DNA of 64,000 bases from Fluviispira vulneris (GTDB lineage Bacteria; Bdellovibrionota_B; Oligoflexia; Silvanigrellales; Silvanigrellaceae). Numbering within the stretch: the first letter of the stretch is position 1; every line of letters starts with the position of its first letter. Shown in pieces: positions 55,496 to 64,000 of the stretch. Under the pieces are notes generated by a model, which made no database searches, was not told the DNA's origin, and worked only from the letters and a program-made list of their open reading frames with translations. Location: assembly GCF_014281055.1 (NCBI RefSeq), contig NZ_JACRSE010000005.1:186001-250000 (forward strand). Direction: 5' to 3'. Made by a program: the position numbers and the translations under genes.

Positions 55496-56161
55496 TTACC
55501 TCGCAAAATAGACAAAAAGTGGTTGAGAAATAAAACCAGCAGCAACAACAACTGCATAGGTATAACCGAAAATTTTAAAGAATTTATTATAACGTGGATG
55601 GCTGAGACCGAGCGTTTGAAAAATAGATTGCACACCGTGATAAAGATGTAAGCCAATTAAAATCATAACAAGTGCATAACCTGCAACATAAAGTGGTTCA
55701 TGAAATTTTTCGATCACCAATTTATAAATATCTCTCATTTCAATGCCATTATAAGTAACAAAATATTCTGGACCAAATTTAAAAGTAATAAGGTGCCAAA
55801 TCACAAATGCAAGCGTAGCAGTTCCTGTGTAAATCATGGTTCTCGATGCAATAGAAGCTGATTTTTCACGCATAGGTGCAACGGCATAAAATTTTGGTTT
55901 TGTTCGAGAGTTTCTTACCACTAAAGTCAAACCCGTTACGGCATGAAATAATAAAACAGCCACTAAAAATGCCTCAATCAAATAGATCAATGGATTGGAA
56001 GTGAGTGCATGACTATAATTATTATATGCTTCTGCACCAACAACAATAAGCATATTTCCTATCATATGAACCATGACAAATAACGACCAAACGATAGCAG
56101 TTAATGCCATTAAGTATTTTTTACCAATGGTACTCGTTAAGAAACTAGAATTTGCTGACAT
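55496..56161 (-). CDS. sdhC: Succinate dehydrogenase cytochrome b558 subunit
   Basis: A 221-residue membrane subunit with five predicted helices, which binds haem b and quinone. The single-subunit membrane anchor, the WSLFVMVHMIGNMLI and GLHLYHGVQSIFQTLG segments with conserved His residues, and the C-A-B order mark the b558 family, not the enterobacterial CDAB type. Start has AGGAG upstream. First gene of the operon. Confidence 0.93.
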   Translation of the reverse strand: MSANSSFLTSTIGKKYLMALTAIVWSLFVMVHMIGNMLIVVGAEAYNNYSHALTSNPLIYLIEAFLVAVLLFHAVTGLTLVVRNSRTKPKFYAVAPMREKSASIASRTMIYTGTATLAFVIWHLITFKFGPEYFVTYNGIEMRDIYKLVIEKFHEPLYVAGYALVMILIGLHLYHGVQSIFQTLGLSHPRYNKFFKIFGYTYAVVVAAGFISQPLFVYFAR

Positions 56162-56649: not shown

Positions 56650-56976
56650 ATGAAAATTTTAGTTTCTTTAATTATTTTTGCAGGATTTATTGTGAGTTGT
56701 GGGAAGGATAAGGGCGAAAATGTAGAGTATGCGCAGTGTAAAAAAGAAGATCCAACCAATCAAGTTTGTCAGTTTATTGGAACTATAAATAATATTAAAA
56801 TCGAATTATACCCCTATGATGAATGCGAAAATGATAGACAGTTTTATTTAAAAAATAATATTATAACTCAGAATGAATACAACACACTTGTTAAGTTTAA
56901 TTTTAGACCAATTATAAGCCGCTTAAAGACTCTTTCTACAGTTGTTGACTGCCACCCCAAACCTAAAGAGAATTAA
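56650..56976 (+). CDS. Small lipoprotein, unknown function
   Basis: A 108-residue exported lipoprotein. The signal peptide ends in a lipobox IVSC with Cys17, followed by GKD. The mature part holds four further Cys residues and no family that I recognise. Start has AGGAGG. The end overlaps the LysE-type gene by 4 bases, convergent. Confidence 0.7.
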   Translation: MKILVSLIIFAGFIVSCGKDKGENVEYAQCKKEDPTNQVCQFIGTINNIKIELYPYDECENDRQFYLKNNIITQNEYNTLVKFNFRPIISRLKTLSTVVDCHPKPKEN

Positions 56977-57596
56977 CCCACCTTAGACACAAGCAAGGTC
57001 ACAGCAAAAAAGCACATAACGAGACCGGAAAAGATTGAAATATAGCGAGCTTTGTTTTGTAAAAATCCGGATGCTTTGCGAGCAAGTAAAAGATAAGTTA
57101 ACATTGATAAACACGTAACGATAATTTGAATAATACACAACGTAATAAGTTGAGAAAATGCTTTCTCATCCTGCGTTATAAACTGTGGAATAAGGGCAAC
57201 ATATATAAATAATACTTTTGGGTTCGTGATACAGCATAAAAAGGCTTCACTAAAAAGAGCTTTTTTCGACCGCTCTGCAATTGATTCGGTTAAAGAAAAT
57301 TTTAGATTGCCTTTGCTCATAAAAGACTTAATTCCCAAATAAAATAGATACAAAGCACCGACTATTTTTAGTCCCATAAAAAAATTGGGTGATATTTTTA
57401 AGACACCACCAACACAAAATACAGTGACTGCGGCAAAAAATAAAAGAGCAAAAGCAGTACCTGGAACCGCAAATAAAGCATTATTTAATTTATACTTTAA
57501 GCCATTGTTGATCATGAGGACAACATTTGGCCCTGGTGAATAAGCAAGTGCCAAAACTGTCCAAGTAAACAACAAATAAACATTTAAATTTTCCAT
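56973..57596 (-). CDS. LysE/RhtB-type amino acid exporter
   Basis: A 207-residue inner-membrane protein with six predicted helices and the LysE signature near the start (ALAYSPGPNVVLMINNGLKY) as well as CITNPKVLFIYVALIPQF. It exports amino acids such as homoserine, threonine or lysine. Last gene of a tight six-gene run (11 bases after the AlaX-like gene). In that context it would export the pathway product. Confidence 0.9.
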   Translation of the reverse strand: MENLNVYLLFTWTVLALAYSPGPNVVLMINNGLKYKLNNALFAVPGTAFALLFFAAVTVFCVGGVLKISPNFFMGLKIVGALYLFYLGIKSFMSKGNLKFSLTESIAERSKKALFSEAFLCCITNPKVLFIYVALIPQFITQDEKAFSQLITLCIIQIIVTCLSMLTYLLLARKASGFLQNKARYISIFSGLVMCFFAVTLLVSKVG

Positions 57597-57607
57597 ATAT
57601 TTCCTTA

Positions 57608-58375
57608 TTAAACTAATTTGTCATGAAAACGATCGAGCAAAGGGGTAAAATTCATATTTTTAATTTCGAAATAAATGCGTTCAATTCCTTTTGACTTTCC
57701 TTTACGCTTGATATGAATATCACCCACATCATACAGAGCATCGAGGTGAGTTCCGCCACAAGGAATGGAAATGCCATTCATCCTCCAGATTCGGCATTCT
57801 GGCTCACCGGGAATTTCAACCATTTCAACCTTGTCTTTATTTAGAATAGACTTCTCAACGAATGACTTTATAAACTTTACATCATCTTCAAGAAATTTTT
57901 CAACTCCAACATCAAACCGGCCACCATCATTGCCAATAAGGCAGCCAAAAGTCGTTTCAGGAACTGTACTTCTGAGTTCTGTCATACCCATATACACTAC
58001 ATGTGATACTGTGTGACTTATGGTCAATTCACAACGGTTTTTCAGATCGATTTCGACTTCAATCTCTCCAGAATCTGGCAATAAGTCAAAATTTTCTTGC
58101 GCTAGAGTCAAGCGAACTTCTCCCTCAACATTTATCAGAGGAAAATCTTTTCTAACGACTGAGCGCCCTATTCCTACAGACTTTTGTGTGTCAATAAAAG
58201 GTAAAATTAAATCTTTATATTTAACCACTCCTTTATCTCCCAACTGACCGCCTCCTTCCGGATAGGCAATGGATCGCGCCAATGCGATTGTATTGCAGTC
58301 TCTTTTTTCAAATTGGGAGATCGCTCGTCTACTGTATGGGAATTGATAATAGAGTTTTTCTGTTTTATAAGTCAT
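57608..58375 (-). CDS. AlaX-like alanyl-tRNA editing hydrolase
   Basis: A 255-residue standalone editing protein related to the editing domain of AlaRS/ThrRS. It has the YPEGGGQLGDKG box, HTVSH (zinc HxxxH) and PCGGTH (zinc C and H), so the metal site is complete. Such proteins deacylate tRNAs wrongly charged with Ser, Gly or other small amino acids. The start at 58375 overlaps the class V gene stop by 4 bases (ATGA). In this operon it may protect the host from misincorporating an unusual amino acid. Confidence 0.88.
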   Translation of the reverse strand: MTYKTEKLYYQFPYSRRAISQFEKRDCNTIALARSIAYPEGGGQLGDKGVVKYKDLILPFIDTQKSVGIGRSVVRKDFPLINVEGEVRLTLAQENFDLLPDSGEIEVEIDLKNRCELTISHTVSHVVYMGMTELRSTVPETTFGCLIGNDGGRFDVGVEKFLEDDVKFIKSFVEKSILNKDKVEMVEIPGEPECRIWRMNGISIPCGGTHLDALYDVGDIHIKRKGKSKGIERIYFEIKNMNFTPLLDRFHDKLV

Positions 58376-59457
58376 AAAATTCCTTTCAAACATGTGCGAA
58401 TTCTTTGTAATAAATCTTCTAAATTCACCGTTGCATCGGGACTGAGTCGAATGCATTCATTTCTAATTTTTGCAATGACGCCGAATTCAAGCAGTTTATT
58501 ATAAATTTCCAAAGTATCAATATTTTCTAAGGTAAATGACACAATACCTGAGCATTTATCTTCTTCAATTGGTGAATGAACATTTGCTCCATAACTTAAT
58601 AATAGCTGAGTTATAGCAAAAGAATTTTGTTTTATTTTTTTTACGACAATATCATAGTTTTCATTTAATAATTCTGATATTGCACTCTGTAAACTTATAA
58701 ATGAAACTCCACTTAAAGTTCCTAATTCAAATCTTAGCAATGTATGATCAATTTGACGATTTTTGCAATCGTACTGATTCCGATCTGAAAAACTATTGTA
58801 GCCAAAAATAGTTTGTTCTATGAGCAAATTCATTCTCTCTGAAACAAGAGCAAACGCAGCTCCCTCGAGGGCACGAAGCCATTTGTGGCCAGCAGAAATA
58901 AAAAAATCAATTTCGTGAATGTCAAAATCAATTGCGCAGGAACCAATTCCTTGCACAGCATCCACAGCAAAAATTACGTTGTTTTTTCGACACCATTGTG
59001 AAAGTTCTTTTAGATTATTTTTATAGCCATTCCAATAATTCACCCATTCTATCAACATAACATCAATTTTTACATCTTGTAAATCTTTAACTTTAATTTC
59101 ACCTTTATCATTTCCAATCTCGATTACTTTATAATTATTTTTTTCAAAAGATAATTTTATACCACCAATTGTTGGAAAATATTCTTTTGGAATGGCAATA
59201 ACACTTCCTTCTTTCAGTTTTAATTGTGAAAGTATGATACTCATAGCATCGGTTGTTGAAGTATAAAAAAGAACACTATTCTGCTTATTTTTTAAAAGTT
59301 CTGAAATTTTTACGCGGCACTCTTCTACTTTTTCCCAACCACTTTTATAGCCTGTTAAATAAAAATTATTTTCCTTATAAGAGTTTATAAACTCCATAAC
59401 AACTGAGTGCGTTTCAGAGCGCAGTTGGCCAACAGATGCTGTATTTGCATAAATCAT
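58372..59457 (-). CDS. Class V aminotransferase-like PLP enzyme
   Basis: A 361-residue fold-type-I PLP enzyme. The PLP Lys is in SAGHKWLRALEG (about 199), preceded by AVDAVQGIGS (Asp binding the pyridine N). This subgroup includes cysteine desulfurases, serine-pyruvate aminotransferases and isopenicillin-epimerase-like proteins; the exact reaction is not evident. Start is an ATG at 59457 with AGG upstream. It overlaps the AlaX-like gene by 4 bases. Confidence 0.85.
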   Translation of the reverse strand: MIYANTASVGQLRSETHSVVMEFINSYKENNFYLTGYKSGWEKVEECRVKISELLKNKQNSVLFYTSTTDAMSIILSQLKLKEGSVIAIPKEYFPTIGGIKLSFEKNNYKVIEIGNDKGEIKVKDLQDVKIDVMLIEWVNYWNGYKNNLKELSQWCRKNNVIFAVDAVQGIGSCAIDFDIHEIDFFISAGHKWLRALEGAAFALVSERMNLLIEQTIFGYNSFSDRNQYDCKNRQIDHTLLRFELGTLSGVSFISLQSAISELLNENYDIVVKKIKQNSFAITQLLLSYGANVHSPIEEDKCSGIVSFTLENIDTLEIYNKLLEFGVIAKIRNECIRLSPDATVNLEDLLQRIRTCLKGIL

Positions 59458-59471
59458 TTTCAATACCTATT

Positions 59472-60398
59472 TTAAATTTTAAGAGCACAATTGATTTCAT
59501 CTGTATAGGTTTCTCCTCTATCAGGAGAAATGATTAGAACTATTTCGTTTGTATTACATTGCTTTAAAAGTTGTTTTTTAGCAATACTCAATGCTAAACA
59601 TGTACTCATACCAACTGTATAAGAATTTCTGTTTGTGAATATTTTCATTTCATGCAGTGTTCTATAAATATTAGACACAAGAATTTCATCGATATATTTT
59701 GCCGCTTCTAAAAATGTCAAACATATTTCATCTTCAGAACCCACACCCCGACATGTTGATAATTTATATGTAATTGATCGTTTTGCCTGATTCACAATGC
59801 TACTCGAAATATCACAACCAACTATTTTTGTTGCAAATCCATTTTCTTTAAGTGCGAGGCTTACCCCTGCAAGCAGCCCCCCAGTACCGACAGGAGCTAC
59901 AACATACTTTGGTTTGATCTGCATTGCTTTAAGATCGTTTACCAATTGCATTCCTAAAGTTTCTTTAAATGCATTTATAAGATCTAAATTATTATGTTGA
60001 TCAAATGAATACCAACCTTCTTTATCAATTAGATAATTTAATTCTTCTATACGGACAGAATTATTTTTTACCATTTTAAAGCAACCATTTTTGCTCTCGA
60101 CTACTTTTGCTAAATAGGGATGAGGAACTTTTGTCGTAATAAACTGAGTTTTCCCTTTTGCTAGATGTACACAATGTGATAATGCCATTGACCAAGAGCC
60201 ACTGCTTCTATCTGCTACTTTAGAAAGGTCGATTTTTTTATCTAACGCCTTTTTTACTAAGTATGCTGCGGAACGAAATTTATGATTGTAATTCAGCGAT
60301 CCTCCTTCTAATTTTATATAAATACGTTCGTCATCGGGAGATTGAACAAGAGGAGTCTGCAAATACATAATTCTGTTTAAACAATCTATACTGTTCAT
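59472..60398 (-). CDS. Fold-type-II PLP enzyme (cysteine synthase/threonine-lyase like)
   Basis: A 308-residue enzyme of the tryptophan synthase beta superfamily. The PLP Lys is in NYNHKFRSA (about residue 40), followed by SSGSWSMALSH, which fills the substrate-phosphate or carboxylate loop, and GTGGLLAGVS, which binds the PLP phosphate. Such enzymes do beta- or gamma-replacement or elimination on activated Ser/Thr/homoserine. Start at 60398 has AGGA six bases upstream. The upstream gene is a threonine/serine-kinase-like protein, so an O-phospho amino acid is a likely substrate. Confidence 0.82.
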   Translation of the reverse strand: MNSIDCLNRIMYLQTPLVQSPDDERIYIKLEGGSLNYNHKFRSAAYLVKKALDKKIDLSKVADRSSGSWSMALSHCVHLAKGKTQFITTKVPHPYLAKVVESKNGCFKMVKNNSVRIEELNYLIDKEGWYSFDQHNNLDLINAFKETLGMQLVNDLKAMQIKPKYVVAPVGTGGLLAGVSLALKENGFATKIVGCDISSSIVNQAKRSITYKLSTCRGVGSEDEICLTFLEAAKYIDEILVSNIYRTLHEMKIFTNRNSYTVGMSTCLALSIAKKQLLKQCNTNEIVLIISPDRGETYTDEINCALKI

Positions 60399-60418
60399 AG
60401 TTTTTCCTAAATAATATT

Positions 60419-61042
60419 CTAAAGACAAATAACTTCATCACAATAAAGGTGTTGTTTATTTAAATAAAATTCATTTAATTCTAATGAATCACATATTATT
60501 ATATTTTGATTATTATAAGTCAAAACTTTTTCTATATATTTCTCTTGTGATTTTTCTTCGTTGTAGAGTAATACTTTTGAACAGACTTCTACACCTGTAA
60601 AATGATTAGGCAAAGCTAATAACCCTTCTTGAATATAGTACTTATCACTCTGTACATAAACATACCCACTTAGAAATGAAAGACCCAAACTTTTATTCTG
60701 CATTGTTTGAATAATATCAATTTGTAAATTTTTTACATTCGATCGATTACTTATAGCTTGTAAAAGTGACAAAATATACAAACAACATATATCGTCAGTA
60801 TTGCCAATTTTATTTCTCAGATAGTTTAGTAAAATATTAAAATTTTGTGGCAATTTATCAAGCAATTCTCTTATATAAATATTTTCACTTATCAACGAAC
60901 AAGAGTAGTCATAGATTTTTAAAAAATCATTATCTATCTCGACTTTGAATGAAATATTTAAATCTGAATTTGTAACTGGAATAATAACTTCTAGATCCTG
61001 ACTAACTATAGGTAAATAAGTATTATAAAATTTTATTTCCAT
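60419..61042 (-). CDS. Unknown protein in the kinase/PLP operon
   Basis: A 207-residue soluble protein with no recognised domain. It is beta-rich at both ends with a helical middle. There are no obvious catalytic clusters. The start is an ATG at 61042; a GTG at 61054 overlapping the kinase stop is possible. The gene lies between the kinase and PLP enzyme, so it is translated with them and is likely part of the same pathway. Confidence 0.6.
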   Translation of the reverse strand: MEIKFYNTYLPIVSQDLEVIIPVTNSDLNISFKVEIDNDFLKIYDYSCSLISENIYIRELLDKLPQNFNILLNYLRNKIGNTDDICCLYILSLLQAISNRSNVKNLQIDIIQTMQNKSLGLSFLSGYVYVQSDKYYIQEGLLALPNHFTGVEVCSKVLLYNEEKSQEKYIEKVLTYNNQNIIICDSLELNEFYLNKQHLYCDEVICL

Positions 61043-61050
61043 TTTATTTC

Positions 61051-61923
61051 TCACACATCATATGACATGATTTTTGAATAAGTACTTCTGTAAATTTCAA
61101 ATGCAAAATTCTTTCTATTCAAAATATTTACAATATTACTTTTTTTAATATTATATTCAGGATCTGTTATATTTAAAATAATCCCGATAGCTGTCCCAGA
61201 GTGAGCAACACATACCCCACAAGCTCGATTCGCCAAACATATTTCTAAGATTTCGTCAAAATTCTTTTTTGGCAAATAATTCTGACTGATTTGTGCACTC
61301 ATTGTAGCACATTTCCCTAAAATTTCAGTATTCCTAATCTTTAGAGCAAACTTAAGCTGCTGATAAATTATTTCAAATTTTCTTAATTCATCATTGCTGT
61401 ATTTTATATTTTTTGAATTAAATTTTAAAGTATCAACCTCGCCTTCTTCCATTATACCAATTATTTCAAAAGGGATAAAACCTAGGCTTTCCTTTAGTAG
61501 GCAGTCATGATGATAATAGGCATTAAAACCAGAATACATCACACCATCCGTTGGTTCGACCTGACGGCAAATTGAGGAAATCAAATCACGCTCACTCTCT
61601 TCATCATATTTTTCATTATGCAATATAGCTTTTAAAGTAGCGACTATATCAGCTGAGCTAGAAGCTAGCCCTTTGCCACGAGTCAATTCTGAAAGAATTA
61701 CAAGTGAATAATTTCCTTTTTTTCCTAATTTCTCTCTTAATATATCAGCAGCTCGATAGCTTTTTGCATAAATATCTCTGTTATCAAGAATAGTTCCTTC
61801 AAGATATTTTACGCAAGAAAATTTTTGAATTGGAAGCGTAACTAGAAAAGGTTTAGAATGAATAACTCCTTGGATAAGTTCACCAAAGGTACCGTTACAA
61901 ACAGCTTGTGATTGAGTGTGCAT
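61051..61923 (-). CDS. GHMP-family kinase, PduX (L-threonine kinase) like
   Basis: A 290-residue small-molecule kinase. Features match PduX: CNGTFGELIQG (about residue 8-18), the ATP loop GKGLASSSADI (about 95-105), QVEPTDGVMYSG and the C-terminal GVCVAHSGTAIGI. PduX makes O-phospho-L-threonine for the cobalamin nucleotide loop, but no cobalamin gene is near. In this operon the phosphorylated amino acid would feed the PLP enzyme downstream. Start at 61923 is the best fit by length to PduX; a TTG at 61974 is an alternative. Confidence 0.82.
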   Translation of the reverse strand: MHTQSQAVCNGTFGELIQGVIHSKPFLVTLPIQKFSCVKYLEGTILDNRDIYAKSYRAADILREKLGKKGNYSLVILSELTRGKGLASSSADIVATLKAILHNEKYDEESERDLISSICRQVEPTDGVMYSGFNAYYHHDCLLKESLGFIPFEIIGIMEEGEVDTLKFNSKNIKYSNDELRKFEIIYQQLKFALKIRNTEILGKCATMSAQISQNYLPKKNFDEILEICLANRACGVCVAHSGTAIGIILNITDPEYNIKKSNIVNILNRKNFAFEIYRSTYSKIMSYDV

Positions 61924-62423: not shown

Positions 62424-63326
62424 TCATTTAGAATAGAAAAATTTGTGCATTGCAAGAATTGTAGATGGAGATAATACATCAGGCCTGGTTTCTTCGCTGA
62501 TACCGAGTGAGGAAGCTAATTGCCAAAATTCACTCATTTTACCCGGATTTTTTTCCTCAAGCTGCTGAAGCTGCGCATGCAAAGCTCTTCTTAGCATTTT
62601 TCGCCGCGCGCTAAATAAAACAGTTGTAAAAGAACTAAAAGCATTGTCTTCTTCTTGAGTTGGAAATGAAAAGCTCTTCGGACTAAGCAAAACAATAGCA
62701 GAATCAACTTTCGGCTGAGGAACAAAACATTTTGCAGGGACGACAAAAAGTTTTTTGACTTCAAAAAAAAGTTGAATACGTACGCTCAAGCGTCCGTAAT
62801 CCTTTGTTCCTGGCTTTGCCTGAAGCCTATCTGCAACTTCATTTTGCACCATGAAAATGCCATGTGTATAAAATTTATAATATTTACAAAACCAAAAAAG
62901 AATGTCACTTGTAATATAATAAGGTAAATTTCCAACGCAAATACATTTTTGCTCTAAACTAAGAGAACGATCTTCACTTGGATCCCATTTTAAAATATCA
63001 GTCTGCACAACTTGAAATTGCTCTTTATAATCTTTTGCTAAAGTTTCATTTAACCCTTGCACTGATCGTTCGTCTTTTTCTAGTGCTGTTATTTTTATAT
63101 TTTTTTGTAGAAGAGGAAGGGTCAATGCACCTGATCCTGGACCAATTTCATGCACATATTTTTGTTCTTTTTCACTAAAAAGTGTATTAATAGAACTGGC
63201 TATTTTTTCAACTACGTTTGCATCTCTTAAAAAATTCTGACCAAGGGATTTCTTTGCGTGAAGATGAAAAGCATGGTCTGCTTTCTCTTTTTTGAATTCT
63301 TTTTCTTTTTTGAATTTACTGCGCAT
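62424..63326 (-). CDS. rsmA: 16S rRNA dimethyladenosine transferase
   Basis: A 300-residue methyltransferase that dimethylates the two adjacent adenosines near the 3' end of 16S rRNA. Signatures: KKSLGQNFLRD, SAM motif I HEIGPGSGALTLPL, NLPYYITSDIL (catalytic motif IV) and FVPQPKVDSAIV. The N-terminus is Lys-rich (KFKKEKEFKKEK). I place the start at 63326 with AGGA upstream; longer frames run into the divergent gene. Confidence 0.95.
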   Translation of the reverse strand: MRSKFKKEKEFKKEKADHAFHLHAKKSLGQNFLRDANVVEKIASSINTLFSEKEQKYVHEIGPGSGALTLPLLQKNIKITALEKDERSVQGLNETLAKDYKEQFQVVQTDILKWDPSEDRSLSLEQKCICVGNLPYYITSDILFWFCKYYKFYTHGIFMVQNEVADRLQAKPGTKDYGRLSVRIQLFFEVKKLFVVPAKCFVPQPKVDSAIVLLSPKSFSFPTQEEDNAFSSFTTVLFSARRKMLRRALHAQLQQLEEKNPGKMSEFWQLASSLGISEETRPDVLSPSTILAMHKFFYSK

Positions 63327-63394
63327 AGCCGTCCTGCCAGTTGAAGGTTTAGAGGAGATGACTCCAGTCATTGCTTTGCAAGAAGGAGAGTTCG

Positions 63395-64000
63395 GTGTCA
63401 AGCAATCCTTTTAGACTTTACGAATGTCCAGCAACACGTTCCGACAGAATCAAGTTTATGCTAGAAGAGTTAAGCATCCCATATGATTTAAAATTGATTG
63501 ACCTCGCAAAAGGGGATCACAAGACCAGTGAGTTTTTAAAATTAAATCCTTATGGTGCCGTTCCTGTGCTTGAAGACATAGAGAAAAAGCTTTTTATATC
63601 TGAATCAGGTGCTATCTGTGAATATATTGCAATGAACTATAAACAAAAGCTTTATTACCCCAATGAAATGAGCGATGAATTTATTCGATATAAAGAACTT
63701 ATGTATTTTGCTGTCAGTTCTCTAGATCCTATCTGTTTAACTATTTTGCATCATGCAAAATCGCTTGCTCCTGAAAATCGATCGGTATATCTTCTTGAAG
63801 ATGCCATTAAGAATTTCTCTTATTGTGCACAATTCTTAGAACATGCGCTAAAAGATAAAACTTATGTACTTGGCAACAGTATAAGCACACCGGATTTTAT
63901 CATTGCAGCAACACTGATTTGGGTCAAAGAAGAAGTTGCAAAACACCCTATACTGCAAAAGTATATCGAAAATATTTTAAAACTGCCTTCTATGATAAAA
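63395..64000 (+). CDS. Glutathione S-transferase-like protein, 3' end outside the window
   Basis: The visible 202 residues match the GST fold. The N-terminal thioredoxin-like domain has LYECPATRSDRIKFMLEEL and the cis-Pro and substrate loop NPYGAVPVLED, with SESGAICEYIA as the G-site Ser-containing segment. A helical C-terminal domain follows. The start is a GTG at 63395, with AAGGAG six bases upstream. It is divergent from rsmA with about 70 bases between. Confidence 0.88.
   Translation, partial: MSSNPFRLYECPATRSDRIKFMLEELSIPYDLKLIDLAKGDHKTSEFLKLNPYGAVPVLEDIEKKLFISESGAICEYIAMNYKQKLYYPNEMSDEFIRYKELMYFAVSSLDPICLTILHHAKSLAPENRSVYLLEDAIKNFSYCAQFLEHALKDKTYVLGNSISTPDFIIAATLIWVKEEVAKHPILQKYIENILKLPSMIK

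Follow-up and report, generated by a model that had tools for sequence, protein, structure and literature searches.

A set made up of a kinase, a cysteine-synthase-like PLP enzyme (PALP), an ATP-grasp protein and an argininosuccinate-lyase (ASL)-like protein is, we presume, the one proposed to make 2,3-diaminobutyrate for uridyl-peptide and lipopeptide antibiotics. The synthesis of L-2,3-diaminopropionate for staphyloferrin B follows another described route, that of SbnA and SbnB, whose kinase, SbnI, belongs to another kinase family. SbnA itself acts on O-phosphoserine and glutamate and so provides a precedent for β-substitution of phosphoserine (PMC12414870), and the DABA of uridyl-peptide antibiotics has been found to derive from threonine and ammonia (PMC10714638). 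In the window, by which we mean the whole stretch of 64 000 nucleotides of Fluviispira vulneris DNA that was analysed (C5:186001–250000), a kinase gene and a PALP gene lie together with four others in a compact operon. We read this operon, with a probability of roughly 0.5, as an accessory pathway for a β-substituted non-protein α-amino acid that would be made, guarded against and exported by its products, and the product of its kinase may also serve a distant NRPS/PKS cluster on contig C3.

Organization and distribution of the operon

The operon consists of six co-directional ORFs on the minus strand of the window, running from 61923 to 56973. The first, K (61051–61923, 290 aa), encodes a GHMP-family small-molecule kinase (PF00288, 1e-8; ATP motif GKGLASSSAD) and is a candidate L-threonine/L-serine O-kinase. 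It is followed by U (60419–61042), a gene of 207–211 codons, depending on its start, with no assigned family; by the PALP gene (59472–60398, from ATG 60398; PF00291, 3e-25), encoding a cysteine-synthase/SbnA-like PLP enzyme of fold-type II and a candidate β-replacement enzyme; and by V (58372–59457, from ATG 59457; PF00266, 1e-26), encoding a class V (fold-type I) PLP enzyme that is a candidate C–X lyase or aminotransferase. The last two genes encode a stand-alone aminoacyl-tRNA editing hydrolase of the AlaX-M type (57608–58375; AlaX/tRNA_SAD family; NCBIfam AlaXM, 2.4e-18) and a predicted amino-acid exporter of the LysE/RhtB family (56973–57596), which matches the LysE profile over its full length (PF01810, residues 16–204, 1.7e-22) and lies nearest to homoserine/threonine efflux profiles (88–90 bits).

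The claim of the preliminary description that six genes are packed into one operon stands, all six ORFs being present in the order given there and spaced by −4 to +20 bases: K–U +8 nt, U–PALP +20, PALP–V +14, V–AlaX −4 (ATGA) and AlaX–LysE +11. The 8-nt gap between K and U is measured from ATG 61042, and becomes a 4-nt overlap if U starts at GTG 61054. The G+C content of U is 24%, compared with 32% for the operon, and a promoter and terminator scan of the operon gave no informative signal. Outside the operon, ksgA (rRNA adenine dimethyltransferase; 62424–63401, minus strand; PF00398, 2e-58) marks the site at one end, and sdhC (succinate dehydrogenase/fumarate reductase cytochrome b subunit; 55496–56161, minus strand), a neighbour kept in both occupied and empty sites, lies at the other. 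A small predicted lipoprotein ORF without a family match (56650–56976, plus strand) points at the end of the operon and overlaps the last bases of the exporter gene. A role of the operon in anti-phage defence was considered and discarded, because PADLOC matched it to no such system and gave only a generic class V similarity to DndA/SspA.

The identical six genes, in the same order and at the same ksgA/sdhC site, were found in F. multicolorata (G005; NZ_WFLN01000009.1, L015), with protein identities between the two species of 84% for PALP, 83% for the LysE exporter, 81% for AlaX, 66% for V and 50% for U. The pN/pS ratios of the operon genes between these two carriers are 0.15–0.47 (0.23 for ksgA, by way of comparison), and the genes, U included, are therefore selected as proteins; the ratio of 0.47 for U, taken with its conserved place in F. 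multicolorata, argues that it is a real gene. Four congeners (G002, G003, G006 and G007) were examined at the corresponding site, and in each of them ksgA and sdhC lie close together with none of the six genes there. U was present in two of 58 genomes of the phylum, both of them the Fluviispira carriers, and absent from the other 56, in a genome set among which F. sanaruensis, the closest species, was not recognised. With two carriers and four empty congener sites, we regard the operon as a recent gain or as a patchily kept accessory. Scattering of the genes in related genomes, which would speak against reading them as an operon, was not seen, and both of the two carriers share the gene order.

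A PALP profile run over 84 980 species returned F. multicolorata as the sole match, a result that depends on poorly chosen peptide patterns and does not prove absence elsewhere. Viral contigs gave no match to the operon, and among plasmids U was unmatched and PALP had one match, at 25% identity. One congener (G003) has a lone relative of AlaX (L088:7803–8564; 55% over 201 residues), which adjoins metK and glyS and for which the CxxxH zinc end was not found in any frame; here, one of the six genes does occur alone, in an apparently degenerate form.

The kinase and its relatives

K is 36% identical (157 bits) to a kinase of Rhizobium gallicum that adjoins a PALP and a lyase, and scores 137–157 bits against kinases on Rhizobium, Mesorhizobium, Kitasatospora and Streptomyces plasmids, compared with 101 bits against a kinase from a cobalamin cluster and 70 bits against Salmonella PduX. 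The label ‘PduX-like’ given to it in the preliminary description was therefore too specific. The kinases nearest to K have as neighbours genes for cysteine-synthase-like PALPs, ATP-grasp proteins and ASL-like proteins, or fusions thereof; the same kinds of gene accompany more distant kinases of its broad group in Sulfuriferula, Azospirillum and Streptomyces, and a kinase and PALP with an ATP-grasp gene only, or alone, occur in Pantoea and Mesorhizobium. Several of the clusters containing K-related kinases are NRPS clusters. The same description held that a kinase plus a cysteine-synthase-like enzyme is known chemistry for making diamino or related acids and, its PduX label apart, this agrees with the kinship of K to PALP-adjoining kinases in clusters of the diamino-acid type and with the PDRGxxY motif that the window PALP has in common with SbnA.

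The remote similarity to PduX and to the cobalamin-cluster kinase, together with the GHMP fold and the GELxQG and GKGxASS motifs that K shares with PduX, would be explained if K were a PduX making threonine phosphate for the aminopropanol of the cobalamin pathway. However, K is only 27% identical to PduX and, in the tree, groups with the nearest kinase set and outside the PduX clade (support 90/87); placement of K on the side of PduX was not rejected by an AU test (p 0.129). Nor is there a cobalamin-salvage context for K, as the operon contains neither CbiB nor another cobalamin gene, and CbiB is absent from the F. vulneris genome according to a search that was positive in eight of 14 named control genomes. 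We therefore give this explanation almost no weight, and continue to treat K as a candidate kinase of an amino-acid pathway.

A genome-wide search with K matched only K itself, and a search for the GHMP family gave K, three grouped hits on contig C2 that probably belong to the mevalonate pathway, and one ThrB-like gene next to that for threonine synthase. In F. multicolorata, K (L015:5407–6230) has lost 49 nt, a deletion that disrupts its reading frame, with both halves still conserved, and the other five operon genes are intact and under purifying selection; K may be dispensable or replaceable in this species. The broken K might be substituted by a second F. multicolorata kinase, a member of the PduX group whose gene is grouped with that of an SbnA-like PALP; otherwise, K would be unneeded for the rest of the operon there. 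We also observed, in four members of the genus, a three-gene set consisting of an SbnA-like PALP, an ANKH/MATE-like transporter and a PduX-group GHMP kinase (L075:6274–9553, L076:5633–8893, L077:5971–9292 and L078:5461–8731), which looks like another phospho-amino-acid pathway.

The remaining proteins and a possible pathway

In the window PALP, the PLP lysine (Lys50), the phosphate loop (GTGG) and the end motif (PDRGETY) are preserved; the loop that is usually SGN reads SSGSWS, with Ser in place of the Asn, and the partner PALPs read SSGT at this loop. SbnA was a full-length match to it among solved structures, and the SbnA profile TIGR03945 was its best NCBIfam match, but the score of 85 bits against a curated cut-off of 350 led us to reject it as SbnA proper. 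The protein is very divergent, with about 20–27% identity to any partner and a branch length of 5.3, and on this long branch its joining to the partner PALP clade had an AU p value of 0.475. From the PDRGxxY-type motif and the PLP lysine, we read it as a putative β-replacement enzyme. A separate SbnA-like PALP, adjoining an ATP-grasp protein, was seen on the same contig about 20 kb past the operon, beyond the window (L055:7593–9917), and this pair is a possible further amino-acid or dipeptide pathway.

V carries its PLP lysine within the sequence SAGHKW. When aligned with two proteins of desulfurase type encoded by the same genome, it shows no His at the PLP-stacking position and a gap at the catalytic mobile Cys loop, and V was rejected as a cysteine desulfurase for these reasons; lyase or transaminase chemistry like that of EgtE or PvdN seems likelier. 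The structure model of V was weak (pLDDT 43). So was that of U (pLDDT 51), with which a fold search gave no significant match, and U had no significant match in Pfam, NCBIfam or the PDB. A suspected relationship of U to DUF2877 was unsupported by Pfam. The C-terminus of U, EVICL, is invariant between the two species.

The zinc ligands of AlaX, HxxxH (121/125) and CxxxH (206/210), are complete in both species, and the protein matches the AlaX structure 2e1b in the PDB at 1.5e-11. It shares its domain layout and zinc ligands with AlaX-M editing hydrolases, but is found in a biosynthetic-looking operon and has only about 31% identity to its nearest plasmid relatives. The combination of AlaX with the exporter would suit protection from an amino acid resembling threonine or alanine.

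From these assignments, we infer the following course of reactions. K would phosphorylate the side-chain hydroxyl of L-threonine or, less probably, that of L-serine, and PALP would eliminate the phosphate to leave a PLP-bound aminocrotonate (or aminoacrylate), to which it would then add a nucleophile. V, acting otherwise than as a desulfurase, would convert the adduct into the final amino acid by cleavage or transamination. AlaX would hydrolyse tRNA mischarged with the product or an intermediate, and the RhtB-type carrier would export the product. The scheme assigns no step to U. The phospho-amino acid formed by K may, in addition, be supplied to the distant NRPS/PKS cluster on C3. Counting against the scheme are the broken frame of K in F. 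multicolorata, the divergence of the window PALP, the AU result for K and the lone AlaX relative of G003.

AlaX and the RhtB-type carrier are defensive functions, and many members of the PALP and class V families are lyases, so that the operon might instead detoxify or recycle a toxic amino acid, such as an environmental analogue of threonine or alanine, by phosphorylation, PLP elimination, tRNA editing and efflux. However, the relatives of K sit in biosynthetic-looking NRPS, ATP-grasp and ASL clusters, and the PALP has the β-replacement motif PDRGxxY rather than a deaminase pattern. We consider detoxification unlikely, and favour synthesis of a non-protein amino acid.

A distant NRPS/PKS cluster and comparison with known modules

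On C3, at about 512–537 kb (L054 and L073), the genome contains an NRPS/PKS cluster with a diamino-acid-type PALP, an ATP-grasp/ASL fusion, a methyltransferase, a MATE-like transporter and a penicillin-amidase-like protein. The PALP of this cluster (376 aa; L054:9099–10229) groups with the rhizobial kinase-linked PALPs (support 84/86), and the gene next to it encodes the fused ATP-grasp/argininosuccinate-lyase protein (L054:6443–9109), which scores 877 bits against NF002563 (cut-off 625). The genome-wide searches with K and the GHMP family found no kinase belonging to the cluster itself, and K is the only candidate kinase in the genome that could feed it. Among eight genomes of the genus, an ortholog of the C3 PALP (82%) was found only in F. 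multicolorata (L079), so that the species bearing the operon and those with a diamino-acid module lacking a kinase are the same two. The operon and the C3 module thus co-occur in exactly two of the eight genomes, which would fit K working for both loci, the two related species counting as one independent case.

The presence on C3 of a PALP of the kinase-linked type and an ATP-grasp/ASL fusion but no kinase, the position of K as the sole candidate and the co-occurrence of the two loci would also be expected if K mainly served the C3 cluster, providing O-phosphothreonine for 2,3-diaminobutyrate, and the other five genes were a resistance and salvage set for that compound or unrelated cargo. This is possible, but we think it doubtful. 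K shares its operon with a PALP of its own, the usual partner of such kinases, and in F. multicolorata the PALP and lyase ORFs of the NRPS cluster are intact although K is broken; the co-occurrence amounts to a single independent case, and the C3 PALP could draw on phosphoserine made on the way to serine. We also considered that both loci share one phospho-threonine kinase, such that C3 makes the diamino acid, the self-protected operon uses the same activated intermediate and its class V lyase to form another amino acid not yet described, and the two are combined in one natural product; this scheme is rather improbable.

The possible link between the operon and the C3 cluster through a shared kinase is a new and testable point, and suggests that an NRPS cluster may rely on a kinase encoded far from it, which programs for finding clusters would overlook. 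If the operon is indeed an accessory amino-acid pathway, it would also offer a clean test case for AlaX proteins as a means of self-resistance and a starting point for finding hidden amino-acid products in the Silvanigrellales, a group that has been little studied.

The open-access literature yielded nothing relevant on the six-gene set or on AlaX in biosynthetic clusters, and no record searched, apart from those of the two Fluviispira species, contained the set with V, AlaX, the exporter and U. The earlier statement that no described system has this set may accordingly hold for the six genes together, but it fails for the kinase and PALP core, which represents a module type already known and recurring on many plasmids. 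Two rhizobial plasmids carry kinase/PALP/ATP-grasp-lyase operons without adjacent NRPS genes (L019, 7860–12624, and L020, 7815–12655), annotated as hypothetical or lyase, and these are possible unrecognised diamino-acid makers.

With the SbnA/SbnB pathway, the window operon shares the logic of a kinase followed by β-substitution of the phospho-amino acid by a fold-type II PLP enzyme, but it lacks an ornithine-cyclodeaminase-like partner of the SbnB type. With the kinase/PALP/ATP-grasp/ASL module of NRPS and rhizobial clusters, it shares the subgroup to which the kinase belongs and the proximity of kinase and PALP, although here U lies between the two and the PALP is far diverged. The ATP-grasp protein and the ASL-family lyase of that module are absent from the operon and are found at C3 instead, whereas V, AlaX, the RhtB-type exporter and U are additions of the window operon to it.
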